Shown piece after piece: positions 50,017 to 56,939 of a stretch of DNA of 64,000 nucleotides. Every line of letters begins with the position of its first letter. The first letter of the stretch is position 1. Made by a program: the position numbers and the translations under genes. This DNA comes from Mucilaginibacter psychrotolerans (lineage in GTDB: Bacteria > Bacteroidota > Bacteroidia > Sphingobacteriales > Sphingobacteriaceae). The notes beneath the pieces were generated by a model. It did not search any database and was not told the DNA's origin. It was given only the letters and a program-made list of their open reading frames with translations. Location: the NCBI RefSeq assembly GCF_004519315.1, contig NZ_SOZE01000001.1:186001-250000 (forward strand), in the 5' to 3' direction.

Positions 50017-50940
50017 TCAATTGTCATTATTTCCCTCTGAAATGCCTGTGTCTAATGGGATTTCACCTAACTTAATAAGGCCAGCCAAGTCTACTGCTCT
50101 AACCAATGATTTTTTAATTTGTGCGAAAAATGCTTCTTTTAAAGGTGCATCCTTATACATTATTGCATGTTGTAAACTCGAATGGCTTGTACCTTCTACC
50201 GTTACCAATGTAGGCTTGTATTTGCCTGAATGGTTCGGGTCAATTTCCAACCGATAAGTCATGAAAATTATATTTATTTGAGGGTTGTTTTTAACATCGG
50301 TTGAACGCATAAAATCCGCACGGGATGTAATGTATTTATACACCTGATCCGGAATTACAGCAACGATCTTAGATTTCCAATGGTGGTGAAAATAGCCTTT
50401 CCTTATGAGTTGTGTAACATAGCGTTTGTAAACGTTATCCCAATTTAAACCAAATGTAGGACTTCTATCTAAATCCTTACCCTCGCGCAAAGCTTGATAA
50501 GCTTTGAATACAGAACCAGTGATATCTATAGCCTGCAATTCAACTGACAGAAAATTCCCCACTTCACCGTCATCTTGAACGTCAGCAATTACAAAGTCTA
50601 CATTACCAAAATCAGCCATTTTAACTTCAGGCGCAAATCTTGCATTTTTGGGTTTTTCGCCAGGCCAACAATGATCTATTACGTCAGTCAGAAAATCAAC
50701 GGCATAGAAACGCTTTGGACATACGAAAATCAAGTCCTGCTTTGGGTCTGCGTTCCCATCGCCTTTGCGCCATATACTACAAACCGGATAAGGTTCGTTA
50801 GGTAAGTTAGTGCTTCGCTTTGTGCAACGGGATTTAATAAAAGGACACTCGAAATTATTCGAAGATGGGTCAATCCCTTTGTACGCCTTTTCACCGAGTA
50901 ATTCCCCTATAATTAGCTCAGGGTTAAAATGCAATGGCAT
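50017..50940 (-). CDS. NotI-like type II restriction endonuclease
   Basis: The 307-residue protein has an N-terminal metal-site-like cysteine set (FECPFIKSRCTKRS, then YPVCSIW), as in the iron-binding domain of NotI. A nuclease core follows, in which DFVIADVQDD and FLSVELQAID give the Asp and Glu-x-Gln of a variant PD-(D/E)xK site. The gene overlaps the 3' end of the methyltransferase gene by 17 bases, which fixes its role as the endonuclease partner. NotI itself cuts GCGGCCGC; specificity here is unproven. Confidence 0.85.
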   Translation of the reverse strand: MPLHFNPELIIGELLGEKAYKGIDPSSNNFECPFIKSRCTKRSTNLPNEPYPVCSIWRKGDGNADPKQDLIFVCPKRFYAVDFLTDVIDHCWPGEKPKNARFAPEVKMADFGNVDFVIADVQDDGEVGNFLSVELQAIDITGSVFKAYQALREGKDLDRSPTFGLNWDNVYKRYVTQLIRKGYFHHHWKSKIVAVIPDQVYKYITSRADFMRSTDVKNNPQINIIFMTYRLEIDPNHSGKYKPTLVTVEGTSHSSLQHAIMYKDAPLKEAFFAQIKKSLVRAVDLAGLIKLGEIPLDTGISEGNNDN

Positions 50941-52108
50941 AATCCTTATTAAGCGGTAGTTTAGTTTGTGTTAATTGAGATATAGGTCTTTTAGTTAACG
51001 ACTTCTCTGCTAAAAGAATACTCTCTGCAATTTTCTTTGCCAAAAGTGGAGGTACTGCATTTCCAACCTGCACGTATTGCTCAGTACGACTACCTTTGAA
51101 ATCAAAAAAATCGGGGAATGACTGCAATCGAGCGGCCTCACGCACGGTGAATGATCTATTTTGTTCCGGGTGTATATAAGCGCCCCAATGAACATCGCAT
51201 TTGGTTAAAACGGTGCAAGACAAATCGGTTTTTTTAGGTCGTCCATAACGCTTGGTATGATCGCTACGTTTCGCTTTTTTCATTCCTTCGGGGAGCAAAT
51301 GTATGGGAATGTCACGCCATGATCCGCCCGGCGGAATATGCTTCATTCTCTCCTCGTTAACTAAAGATAGTTTAGATGCGGAGTGATTATAAAGCTGATA
51401 ACTAGCTTCTCTCAATTGTGCCTGATAGCTATTCTTCGGAGAGGTAGCATAATGTAAAGTGACATTCTTGTCTCCGTTTTCAAGTTTCGGAAGATCAGAA
51501 ATAGCGTCCCAAACGGTAACAAAAGGTTGAAGGCCTGCACCATGCGTAGGCTTTGGAAATAATATAGGAGCGTCTGTACGTGTCGCGATGAAAACAATTC
51601 TGCGCCGTTCTTGCGGCACGCCATACTCTTCTGCTCGAAGTACTTTCTTTTCTACCTTATAGCCAAGGTTTTCTACACCTTCTGTTAATTCCTTTACTAT
51701 GCTACCTCCGGCAATAGATGTAATTCCAGTTACGTTTTCTATTACAAGCCAACGTGGCTTAATACCTTCCACAATCCTTAAGTATTCGCGAAACAGACCA
51801 GATCGTGGATCTTCCAATCCTCGTTGATGATTGTTTATTGAATAGCCTTGACAGGGCGGTCCACCTACAATGATATCAATTTCACCATGCTTAACTTTTG
51901 CCGCGTTCAATAAATCTTGTGGGGAAACATTTTGTATCGGGCCGCCAATAAATGTCGCTTCCGGATGGGTCGCCGAAAAAGTTTCTCCTGCACGGTCGTC
52001 ATAGTCTTGACCGACTAAAACTTTAAAACCAGCTTGTCTAAAACCTTCTGAAAGCCCGCCCGCTCCGCAAAAAAGATCTATAACTGTCAGAGATTGCGTT
52101 GATTTCAT
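50924..52108 (-). CDS. C5-cytosine DNA methyltransferase of the restriction pair
   Basis: The 394-residue protein has the ordered C5-methyltransferase motifs: I (VIDLFCGAGGLSEGF), IV with the catalytic Cys (VGGPPCQGYS), VI (LVIENVTGI), VIII (QERRRIVFIAT), a target-recognition region (~220-310), IX (REAARLQSFPDFF) and X (VQVGNAVPPLL). It protects host DNA from the downstream endonuclease. The methyltransferase gene comes first, so methylation can precede cutting after transfer. AT-rich codon use suggests recent acquisition. Confidence 0.95.
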   Translation of the reverse strand: MKSTQSLTVIDLFCGAGGLSEGFRQAGFKVLVGQDYDDRAGETFSATHPEATFIGGPIQNVSPQDLLNAAKVKHGEIDIIVGGPPCQGYSINNHQRGLEDPRSGLFREYLRIVEGIKPRWLVIENVTGITSIAGGSIVKELTEGVENLGYKVEKKVLRAEEYGVPQERRRIVFIATRTDAPILFPKPTHGAGLQPFVTVWDAISDLPKLENGDKNVTLHYATSPKNSYQAQLREASYQLYNHSASKLSLVNEERMKHIPPGGSWRDIPIHLLPEGMKKAKRSDHTKRYGRPKKTDLSCTVLTKCDVHWGAYIHPEQNRSFTVREAARLQSFPDFFDFKGSRTEQYVQVGNAVPPLLAKKIAESILLAEKSLTKRPISQLTQTKLPLNKDYAIAF

Positions 52109-54773: not shown

Positions 54774-55607
54774 ATGGAAGAAATCCTAAATAAATCCAAA
54801 ATCGGGAACCCGAAATCCGAAATCCTCGTGGTTCCTACTATGGCCCAGATGGTTGCCGAAGGCAAAACGCCCGAGATACTTTTTTGGGTAGGCTGCGCAG
54901 GCAGTTTCGACGAGCGGGCGCAGAAAATAACCCGCGATATTTGCAAGATACTGCAGCATACAGGCATCAGTTACGCCGTATTGGGTACCGAAGAAAGCTG
55001 CACCGGCGACCCCGCAAAACGCGCAGGCAACGAGTTCCTGTTCCAGATGCAGGCCATGACCAATATTGAGTTATTGAACGCCTACGAGGTAAAAAAGATA
55101 GTAACCGGCTGCCCGCATTGCTTCAACACTATTGCCAACGAATACCCTGGTTTGGGTGGTAAATACGAAGTGATACACCATACCCAACTGATACAGGGCC
55201 TTATTGACGAAGGCAAGCTAAAAGCCGAAGGCGGCGAAAGCTTCAAGGGCCGCCGCATTACCTTCCACGATCCTTGTTACCTGGGCCGCGGCAATGGCGT
55301 TTACGAAGCTCCCCGCGCAGCTTTAGAGATACTGGATGCCGAACTGGTAGAAATGAAACGCTGCAAAAGCAATGGCCTTTGCTGCGGCGCGGGCGGTGCC
55401 CAAATGTTTAAAGAACCCGAAAAAGGCAATAAAGATATCAACGACGAGCGTATGCTTGATGTACTGGAGGCCAAAGCCGATGTCATCGCTTCCGGCTGCC
55501 CCTTCTGCATGACGATGCTGAGCGATGGCGTAAAGCACATGGATAAAGAGCAGGAAATAAAAGTACTAGATATTGCCGAGATCACCGTGCGGGCGAACGG
55601 GTTGTAG
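54774..55607 (+). CDS. CCG-domain Fe-S oxidoreductase subunit
   Basis: The 277-residue soluble protein has two cysteine-rich CCG domains, as in heterodisulfide reductase subunit B: SCTGDPAKRAGNE with GCPHCFNTIANEYP, and DPCYLGRGNGVYEAPR with SNGLCCGAGGAQMF and GCPFCMTMLSDG. The family core begins around VPTMAQMVAEGKTPEILFWVGC. The first 18 or so residues (KSKIGNPKSEIL) are encoded by a GAAATCCGAAATCC-type repeat, so the native start may have been rebuilt by repeat insertion. It works with the 52955 product. Confidence 0.9.
   Translation: MEEILNKSKIGNPKSEILVVPTMAQMVAEGKTPEILFWVGCAGSFDERAQKITRDICKILQHTGISYAVLGTEESCTGDPAKRAGNEFLFQMQAMTNIELLNAYEVKKIVTGCPHCFNTIANEYPGLGGKYEVIHHTQLIQGLIDEGKLKAEGGESFKGRRITFHDPCYLGRGNGVYEAPRAALEILDAELVEMKRCKSNGLCCGAGGAQMFKEPEKGNKDINDERMLDVLEAKADVIASGCPFCMTMLSDGVKHMDKEQEIKVLDIAEITVRANGL
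54791..54826. repeat. AAATCCGAAATCC word repeat in the N-terminal coding region
   Basis: AAATCCAAAATCGGGAACCC followed by GAAATCCGAAATCC is translated as KSKIGNPKSEIL. The same words (ATTTCGGATTTCG, AGTCCGAAATT) form the intergenic repeat at 59808-59985. Confidence 0.7.
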
Positions 55608-55631: not shown

Positions 55632-55834
55632 AATGTCATTTCGATAGAGCATGGGTGGGGCATTGCGCTGAGGTGCGAAAGAGAAAACTTATACGGTTTG
55701 CTATGACCGCCTTGAATGAATGACATCCATTACAGCTCTGCATACCGGATTTGCTCAATTGCCGGCTGCGCGTATAAGTTTTCTCCTCACGCCCTTTCAC
55801 GGCCCCACGCTTCAGTTCGTCGAAATGACATGGG
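55632..55834. repeat. 201-bp nested palindrome, copy A
   Basis: Outer arms: ATGTCATTTCGAT at the left end and TCGAAATGACAT at the right. Inner arms: GAGAAAACTTATACG (55681-55695) and CGTATAAGTTTTCTC (55771-55785), perfectly complementary. It is equal in length to copy B and in the same orientation. It begins about 25 bases after the Fe-S gene stop. Confidence 0.93.
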
Positions 55835-55864
55835 GTTTTATTTATCGATTTTGTATATTCACCT

Positions 55865-56168
55865 CATGTGGAACCATAATTACTACATGTACATCACAAC
55901 CAATCCCGGTAAAACCACGTTATACGTTGGGATGACGAACGATGTAGGTATCCGTGCTTTCCAACATAAAGAAAACCGTGGCACGAACAACTCCTTCGCC
56001 GGCAAATACTATTGCTACTGCCTGGTTTATTATGAGCATTTCACGCATGTCGAACAGGCCATCGCCAGGGAAAAAGAAGTTAAGAAATGGCGGAGGGAAA
56101 AGAAGTTAGCCCTGATAGAATCCATAAACCCTGAGTGGAGGTTTTTGAATGATGAGGTTGGCGGGTAG
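55865..56168 (+). CDS. Small GIY-YIG nuclease flanked by repeats
   Basis: The 100-residue protein (ATG 55865, MWNHNYYMYITTNPG) has the GIY-YIG fold motifs: YYMYITTNPGKTTLYVGMTND (the GIY and YIG equivalents), VGIRAFQHKENRG with the Arg/His region, YYEHFTHVEQAIAREKEVKKWRREKK with the metal-binding Glu, and IESINPEW at the end. It matches the stand-alone UPF0213-like nucleases that are frequent in Bacteroidota. It sits exactly between two 201-bp palindromic repeats, and the frame is open back into copy A (to 55716). Confidence 0.9.
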
Positions 56169-56198
56169 GCAGTTCTTCCTACAACCAACCCAACCACC

Positions 56199-56401
56199 CA
56201 TGTCATTTCGATAGAGCAGGGGTGGGGTGAGTGCGAGAATGCGCGAAAGAGAAAACTTATACGGCGTGCTATGACTGCCCTATATGAACGACATCGATTA
56301 CCACAATGCATATTCGATGTGCTCAGTCGTCGGCTGCGCGTATAAGTTTTCTCTTCGCCCCACCGCTTTTTCCTCCCCACTGCTCATCGAAATGACATGG
56401 T
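56199..56401. repeat. 201-bp nested palindrome, copy B
   Basis: Outer arms CCATGTCATTTCGAT and ATCGAAATGACATGG are perfect 15-base inverted repeats, continued by GAGCA-type pairing. Inner arms are GAGAAAACTTATACG (56249-56263) and CGTATAAGTTTTCTC (56339-56353). A third level near the centre pairs ACATCGA with TCGATGT and GACTG with CAGTC. It differs from copy A mainly in the centre. Confidence 0.95.
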
Positions 56402-56412
56402 GGTGAGGATGG

Positions 56413-56880
56413 TCACATCCCCTTCTTCTTCAAAAACGTAAAGGCTTCCTTCAAACTATCCAGCCTGGCAGGGCTTAGTTTAACCACCGGGATTTTGAGC
56501 GATGTAGCCACCGAATCTAAATCGCCGTTAGGGTCGTCAAAGGTTTGGATGATGATATCATCGGTAAGGGTGCGCACCTGCAAGGTATCAGCTAAAGTAT
56601 CAGCTGTAGTGCGCTGGTAATTCATCGCCCTGATGCGCTTGATATTGAAGGAATAATACGCCTGATTGCCCTGTTGATAAGTTTTGCGGATGCGGATAAA
56701 ATGGTCGGTAGTGAGGGCTATTTCCCAATGGGCTATGTTCGGCTCGCCGGATGGGTCGTACGCTTCCGTAAGCACCCTGTTGCCCCAGCTTACCCATGCC
56801 TGCTCATCCATAAAGCCCGCAAAGCCGTATAGGAGGGGTATGATCAGCAATGCTATAGCAATAAAGGATGCTTTTTTCAT
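56413..56880 (-). CDS. Membrane-anchored hypothetical protein
   Basis: The 155-residue protein from the ATG at 56880 has one N-terminal hydrophobic segment (ASFIAIALLIIPLLYGFAGFM), which could be a signal or an anchor, and a soluble remainder with HWEIALTTDHFIRIRKTYQQGNQAYYSFNIKRI and a Lys-rich end (LKEAFTFLKKKGM). No family is recognised. Its stop lies 12 bases beyond palindrome copy B. Confidence 0.65.
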   Translation of the reverse strand: MKKASFIAIALLIIPLLYGFAGFMDEQAWVSWGNRVLTEAYDPSGEPNIAHWEIALTTDHFIRIRKTYQQGNQAYYSFNIKRIRAMNYQRTTADTLADTLQVRTLTDDIIIQTFDDPNGDLDSVATSLKIPVVKLSPARLDSLKEAFTFLKKKGM

Positions 56881-56939
56881 CTTTGGTAGAAGTGATCTTA
56901 GCATGACAACAAACAATACACCCAAGTAAATAAATTGAA

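Follow-up and report, generated by a model that had tools for sequence, protein, structure and literature searches.

What does a small GIY-YIG gene do between two long palindromes? The question arises in a 64,000-nt stretch of Mucilaginibacter psychrotolerans contig NZ_SOZE01000001.1 (hereafter the window, to which all coordinates refer), where the gene (55866–56168, + strand, ATG to TAG, 100 codons, PF01541) is located between palindrome A (55633–55831) and palindrome B (56200–56398). The original prediction, that two palindromes in the same orientation flank a 100-aa GIY-YIG gene and little else, was confirmed in the sequence, and no gene other than the GIY-YIG gene lies between them. The repeats had also been described as exactly equal in length, at 201 bp. 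Both in fact measure 199 bp from ATGTCAT to ATGACAT, the larger figure counting one extra base per end, and their equal length is partly a coincidence, since the indels compensate one another in the best gapped alignment (158 of 206 columns identical, about 77%).

Both palindromes are REP dimers, palindrome A with the ends TGTC.../...GACA. The two share outer arms (ATGTCATTTCGA / TCGAAATGACAT) and inner arms (GAGAAAACTTATACG / CGTATAAGTTTTCTC) around a variable centre. The outer arms of palindrome B (56198–56212 and 56386–56400) match at 15 of 15 positions, as had been claimed. The inner arms, predicted to be perfect over 15 bases, are so in palindrome A (55681–55695, inverted match to 55771–55785) and longer in palindrome B, where the perfect inverted match covers 17 bp (56247–56263 and 56339–56355). 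The expectation that a single strand can fold was borne out by both copies: as single DNA strands, palindrome A reached -40.6 kcal/mol (z -5.2) and palindrome B -51.2 kcal/mol (z -8.6), and for neither was any of 200 dinucleotide shuffles as low.

The TGTC tags start at 55634 in palindrome A and at 56201 in palindrome B. In the left REP of palindrome A the tag (55634–55637, + strand) is followed by the stem ATTTC (55638–55642), whose partner GAAAA (55683–55687) carries one mismatch, at the first pair; a solo copy in the same genome (L001) has GAAAT at this position. The partner arm in the window palindrome runs on into CTT rather than a CCA tail, and the loop is long and weakly paired. Additionally, the 13-mer CATTTCGATAGAG occurs five times genome-wide, compared with zero for a reversed-pattern control; three of the copies lie outside the window, on contigs C19 and C37, neither of which is among the GIY-YIG profile matches listed.

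The window protein scores 42.1 bits against the Pfam GIY-YIG profile PF01541 (cut-off 22.6), its sole Pfam match. Residues Y9, Y20, G22, R30, E69, and N88 are invariant across 31 aligned homologues, among which we take Y9, Y20, R30, and E69 to be the likely catalytic Tyr, Tyr, Arg, and Glu of the superfamily. By profile and conserved residues, the protein is thus a member of the GIY-YIG superfamily and a putative nuclease. Pfam detects no added DNA-binding domain in it, and it consists of a bare domain of about 100 aa. No NCBIfam family scored above cut-off for the 11 homologues scanned, L012 included, two of which gave weak sub-cut-off matches to TIGR01453. The closest solved chains by sequence are the UPF0213 proteins 1zg2 (E 4.5e-10) and 1ywl (1.8e-6), while the nearest protein relatives among the best 80 of 520 loci are from Mucilaginibacter. 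A role in anti-phage defence was considered and dropped, PADLOC giving no match for three proteins. The reading frame is open upstream to an ATG at 55716, inside palindrome A, which would give a protein of 150 aa; palindrome A could thus supply an N-terminal extension (55716–56168, + strand).

The locus is bordered on the left by a gene for 277 aa (54774–55607, + strand) that is conserved in relatives, and on the right by a gene for 170 aa (56413–56925, - strand) without a Pfam family; these two genes served as borders in the site comparison described below. Elsewhere in the window (50017–52108, - strand) lies a type II restriction-modification pair, in which a 307-aa protein adjoins a 394-aa C-5 cytosine methylase and matches the family of the NotI endonuclease at 33.3 bits (cut-off 22).

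The pairing of gene and palindrome extends well beyond this locus. The first sample comprised the best 80 of 520 confirmed GIY-YIG loci on named contigs. When the 300-bp flanks of each gene were matched to each other (score at least 30), matching flanks were found at 71 of the 77 scored loci, three of the 80 being unscorable, and at 37 of 444 control ORFs, namely other ORFs of at least 80 aa from the same loci (45 of 547 with near neighbours counted). We also applied a strict hairpin finder, which looks within 400 bp for the tag [TC][GC]TC, a stem that is 5 bp or longer and begins with A-T or A-C, a loop of up to about 45, and a C after the stem. Inspection by eye showed that REPs with a different first base escape it, and the rates it gives are accordingly low estimates. 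Strict tagged hairpins were present on both sides at 41 of these best 80 loci versus 6 of 322 control ORFs, and on at least one side at 57 of 80 versus 40 of 322. Where hairpins were found in this sample, their median distance from the gene was 53 bp upstream and 21 bp downstream. At 29 of 39 loci with hairpins on both sides, the nearest ones share one orientation with respect to the gene (16 heads out and 13 heads in). A heads-out gene is enclosed by one inverted pair; a heads-in gene, such as the window's, stands between two dimers.

Next, strong and diverged homologues were compared. In genomes of the window's family, the strict finder detected hairpins on both sides of 12 of 21 strong homologues (L014–L034) and on at least one side of 17, whereas diverged GIY-YIG genes from such genomes had none (0/8 on both sides, 0/8 on any side). 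The best matches of the phylum sample gave 12 of 28 and 18 of 28, respectively. Two further sets, 40 strong homologues from the phylum and 40 diverged genes from 38 genomes of the window's family, were hand-picked by score with the flanks unseen; they are unmatched by genome, and the within-family comparison of 21 with 8 genes is the better matched one. In the strong set, strict hairpins occurred on both sides at 27/40 and on at least one side at 31/40, and the flank score was reached at 35/40; the corresponding figures in the diverged set were 0/40, 0/40, and 4/40. With a relaxed tag (any base before), the counts were 32/40 on both sides and 36/40 on any side for the strong genes, versus 0/40 and 5/40 for the diverged ones. 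Strict hairpins were missing from one or both sides at 13 of the 40 strong loci. Inspection by eye of ten strong loci with weak or absent strict hits revealed several GTC-tagged or degenerate hairpins and a few loci with little, and in some flanking hairpins the first tag base falls outside the [TC]GTC/CCTC set. Homologues consistently lacking the repeats were not seen among the strong ones, while the diverged, apparently vertical homologues do lack them (0/40). The pairing of this GIY-YIG subfamily with GTC-tagged hairpins is thus well supported. The link first drawn by analogy with REP/RAYT systems reaches far past the window locus, whereas a role of the protein in mobilising, cutting, or maintaining the palindromes is one that we infer.

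The window's own genome shows the same arrangement repeatedly. It contains nine GIY-YIG profile matches, seven of which were found with a single protein query, and six of these seven genes sit, by eye, between dispersed palindromes; five of the six pass the strict finder, the window's own falling one base pair short. The stems differ among them, with ATTGC at three genes, ATTCC (with ATATC) at one, ATCCT/ATGCT at one, and an ATTTC type at the window's gene. One of the six palindrome-flanked genes (on C38) carries an internal stop. The seventh gene, L012, is 31% identical and has no flanking palindromes. In other genomes, several GIY-YIG genes are clustered on one contig (G046:C29:73659-74984, G228:C31:267282-274106, and G241:C86:45033-46137), with four genes in 1.4 kb in the G046 cluster; local amplification is possible in these cases.

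Stem type was then set against protein lineage. The tree of 117 proteins over 96 columns is weakly resolved, and 95 loci on it carry a stem label occurring at least three times, that of the window locus (ATTTC) being assigned by hand. The other 22 rows, outside the label test, comprise 14 with rare stems and 8 unflanked homologues, the latter being the only loci without a found hairpin kept in the tree. The labels require 37 changes, compared with a shuffled mean of 63.9 (0 of 200 shuffles as low), while a perfect fit of the nine labels would take 8. The ten ATTGC loci, from the window's genome and others, need one change, with support 83; four of the nine labels (ATCCT, ATCTC, ATGCT, and ATGTC) show no clustering on the protein tree, and near-copies contribute to label clustering by descent. 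We read this pattern as matched enzyme-REP lineages with frequent switching, without a strict code.

The search was also extended to other phyla. A Chryseobacterium homologue used as tblastn query against a plasmid collection, several records of which are chromosome-sized, matched 32 records, mostly from Rhizobium, Sphingobium, Sinorhizobium, and Shinella, with further matches in Neisseria, Azospirillum, Novosphingobium, Aeromonas, Photobacterium, Planktothrix, and Spirosoma. Among the 12 relatives fetched (Proteobacteria, Cyanobacteria, and Bacteroidota), strict hairpins were found on at least one side in 11 and on both sides in 7, and palindromes were visible by eye on both sides in 10. The tag of the proteobacterial relatives is CGTC or CCTC. 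As to their locations, a GIY-YIG unit with REP dimers lies between sufB and sufC on Azospirillum lipoferum plasmid AZO_p3 (L163), and on Planktothrix agardhii plasmid p1 (L153) a GIY-YIG gene with TGTC REPs lies between an MmeI-type restriction enzyme and the DISARM helicase gene drmA, hence inside a defence region.

At the level of whole genomes, REPs were counted in 198 Bacteroidota genomes at least 90% complete, using a generic REP pattern net of a reversed control. With the line between strong and weak GIY-YIG matches at E 1e-15, a value chosen by hand, the median number of REPs was 19 in genomes with a strong match (n=92), 3 in those with weak matches only (n=33), and 2 in those with none (n=73). 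At least 10 REPs were present in 59 of the 92 genomes with a strong GIY-YIG gene versus 14 of the 106 without (odds ratio 11.7, p=8e-14), and across 39 family codes REP counts and GIY-YIG genes were correlated (Spearman 0.66, p 5e-6). Eleven of the 92 had two REPs or fewer by the pattern used. Palindrome-rich genomes without a GIY-YIG gene, named at the outset as a case against the association, do exist, as a minority: the 14 of 106 above. Ten of these 14 were rechecked with PF01541, whereby G192 was found to have a 100-aa GIY-YIG missed by the profile and G368 to have a short sub-cut-off match. The extreme is G016 (3.9 Mb on one contig), in which about 549 near-uniform REPs were counted, many of them GTCATTGCGAGGAACGAAGCAATCT (loci L207–L236 on C1); neither a standalone GIY-YIG (PF01541 matched only frames of 609 and 460 aa) nor a Y1 transposase was found in it. 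One REP copy of this genome (L217) lies apparently within a coding frame. RAYT was considered as the REP partner and rejected: none of the nine Y1_Tnp genes of two genomes (G000 and G013, one of them the window's) has such hairpins within 500 bp, and G016 is without Y1_Tnp.

We further looked for presence, absence, and movement at individual sites. In 29 loci of the genus, the 1 kb next to the left gene of the window site showed no GIY-YIG gene (one locus covered for 352 bp). The spacer between the border genes measures 0 to 238 bp in the five relatives whose alignments span both spacer edges (G102, G036, G080, G084, and G176), versus about 800 bp here; in others the border genes are farther apart or have other sequence between them, the distance reaching about 3 kb (G124 and G132). 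Against 120 genomes of the genus the flanking genes align, and base-exact ends were not found, the spacers being too diverged. At a site on Sphingobium plasmids, between fnrL and a response regulator gene, REP-gene-REP' is found in four records (one frameshifted), its terminal repeats being near-perfect and about 30 bp long; two further records have just one REP hairpin there, and in one both gene and REP are absent. Presence and absence are clear here, and spacer divergence blurs the exact ends. At another site, two strains carry a REP dimer that a third lacks. Three 50-kb stretches of S. meliloti pSymB yielded one full REP copy, probably common to many strains, and no clean empty site was found in the genus of G201. 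A base-exact insertion was thus not found by any of four routes (window site, pSymB, Sphingobium, and the genus of G201), and in the Rhizobium pair L158/L173 the REP dimer differs by a replacement of unlike sequence, without a clean insertion. Target duplications, which the original prediction proposed to seek by comparing empty and filled sites, showed no excess: direct repeats of 1 to 4 bases flank 13.7, 5.2, 0.5, and 0.5% of 212 dimers, versus 19.4, 4.8, 1.7, and 0.5% after shuffling. Identical 9-mers stand on each side of two of the 212 (L022 and L153), but both belong to tandem arrays, with the next unit directly adjoining.

Comparison with known systems places these hairpins close to a described group of repeats. 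According to Di Nocera et al. 2013 (PMC3733652), most REPs fall into the GTAG and CGTC superfamilies, the latter with a tag varying to TGTC or CCTC, A-T first stem pairs, a stem of 8–9 bp, a loop of 4–5 bases, tails that are mostly CCA, and head-to-head dimers; it includes Rickettsia RPE-4/RPE-6 and Neisseria dRS3. The hairpins studied here share the tag (TGTC, CGTC, or CCTC), the A-T first pairs, and the head-to-head dimers (212 found); on stem and tail the strict finder was laxer than this definition, accepting stems from 5 bp upwards that begin A-C as well as A-T and asking for no more than a C behind them. Moreover, S. meliloti, A. lipoferum, and Neisseria, which appear in that survey (PMC3733652), recur among the GIY-YIG relatives. 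The window REPs differ from the superfamily in their long, weakly paired loop, their one stem mismatch, and their other tail. The company also differs: the 2013 survey, which defined these widespread bacterial repeats, describes them as apparently without a dedicated transposase (PMC3733652), whereas in the present loci a GIY-YIG gene usually lies next to them.

The likeness to the REPtron (RAYT/TnpA-REP), a system also described in the 2018 HUH enzyme survey (PMC6006769), is one of organisation. In both, with the RAYT side taken from the two surveys (PMC3733652, PMC6006769), a small gene is flanked by its own dispersed tagged palindromes, which also form dimers, REP families and lineages of the enzyme tend to correspond, the spread is patchy, and REP-rich genomes without the gene occur. 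The protein fold, however, is GIY-YIG here and HUH/Y1 (PF01797) in RAYT, the tag is GTC (CGTC, TGTC, or CCTC) rather than GTAG, and in many cases a lone inverted pair encloses the gene. A RAYT system proper was rejected on fold, PF01541 being the only match, and on the tag, which is not GTAG.

Among GIY-YIG proteins, the bare single-domain form resembles the UPF0213 or 'non-Eukaryota Slx1' cluster, the Slx1-like cluster in which the 2006 survey places standalone prokaryotic proteins (PMC1564403). The diverged homologues in genomes of the window's family, about one per genome, are REP-flanked in 0/40 cases, while the subfamily studied here can be multicopy and is usually flanked. With GIY-YIG homing endonucleases the window's subfamily shares the GIY-YIG core, a patchy distribution, and a site-linked gene; it differs in having no extra DNA-binding domain and in being tied to a multicopy palindrome, not to one target. 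The 2006 survey also describes an HsdR gene that recently received an inserted GIY-YIG domain (PMC1564403), which fits mobility. The string 'palindrom' does not occur in that survey (PMC1564403), nor 'GIY' in the main text of the 2018 HUH survey (PMC6006769), nor any word beginning 'nuclease' or 'transposase' in a 2025 REP survey (PMC12306157). A link between GIY-YIG and REPs was not found among the matches listed in the open-licence PMC literature.

On these grounds we lean towards regarding the small GIY-YIG protein as the cognate nuclease of the surrounding GTC-tagged REPs, which would make it, by analogy, a GIY-YIG counterpart of the RAYT/REP system; the subfamily and its hairpins likely work like a REP-enzyme pair. 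During replication or repair, the enzyme would recognise its own REP when folded into a GTC-footed hairpin, and would nick it. Host replication or repair may then copy the REP, the REP dimer (MITE- or REPIN-like), or the whole REP-gene-REP to a new place, leaving no target duplication, so that solo dimers would represent the non-autonomous form and REP-gene-REP the autonomous form. The enzyme may thereby spread REPs instead of homing into them, as a candidate mobiliser. A rather unlikely alternative is homing: the gene would be a minimal parasite, resembling a homing endonuclease, that cuts its cognate REP in order to land there, and would only follow REPs that spread otherwise. Homing also yields flanking on both sides and stem specificity, and some insertion sequences likewise land in REPs, which are known IS targets (PMC1525189). 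At the Sphingobium site occupied by REP-gene-REP' in four records, two that lack the gene show one REP hairpin, and REP-rich genomes without the gene exist; the single-REP state and G016 fit homing at least as well. Landing in one REP should, however, split it, whereas complete hairpins stand on both sides in 27/40 strong homologues. Homing is also set against the abundance of REPs in genomes with the gene (at least 10 in 59/92, versus 14/106 without a strong match) and against the bare domain of about 100 aa. A gene-REP correlation is equally expected under homing and does not by itself discriminate between the two; the intact hairpins together with the genome-level correlation moderately favour a mobiliser.

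Branched or damaged DNA is the substrate of GIY-YIG enzymes such as Slx1 and UvrC, and this activity, along with the invariance of the likely catalytic residues, would suit a domesticated, structure-specific resolvase for trimming or resolving REP cruciforms, retained beside the REPs because genomes rich in them need it. Such host upkeep is improbable, as it leaves unexplained the position between REPs, the several diverged copies per genome with differing stems, the internal-stop copy on C38, the patchy presence, and the presence/absence at one site. It is very improbable, too, that the association is indirect, with small mobile genes gathering in REP-rich spacers and REP families shared by descent without any function. 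Control ORFs from the first sample do have a hairpin on at least one side in 40/322 cases and stem labels cluster partly by descent, but this account is already strained by the both-side counts (41/80 versus 6/322), by the lack of hairpins at diverged genes of the same domain (0/40) and at Y1 transposase genes (0/9), and by the ten ATTGC loci, which need a single change despite other-stem paralogues in the window's genome. The terminal inverted repeats and MITE-like solo copies that are present would fit a DDE-type transposon or MITE family carrying the GIY-YIG gene as cargo between palindromes that serve as its terminal inverted repeats, and identical 9-mers do flank L022 and L153, though the next tandem unit follows there. 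Yet the 212 dimers show no excess of short direct flank repeats, and between the window's palindromes there is no second gene, which makes this reading highly improbable.

Taken as the cognate nuclease of its REPs, the protein may define a new class of mobile element, a prospect to which we give somewhat less than even chances: a GIY-YIG nuclease of about 100 residues would be the only enzyme of a REP-gene-REP unit that spreads by way of folded GTC-tagged hairpins and makes no target duplications. It would also be the driving enzyme that the CGTC REP superfamily has long lacked, in Bacteroidota, Proteobacteria, and Cyanobacteria at least, and would account for the Neisseria repeats and, if extended, those of Rickettsia. 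With a specific small candidate and a matched hairpin substrate, the question of the CGTC REP enzyme becomes directly testable, and the matching of stems and proteins would offer natural nuclease-hairpin pairs for studying recognition. If the proposal is true, many proteins annotated as 'GIY-YIG nuclease family protein' would gain a likely role, and two unrelated nuclease folds, HUH and GIY-YIG, would have converged on tagged-hairpin REP systems.
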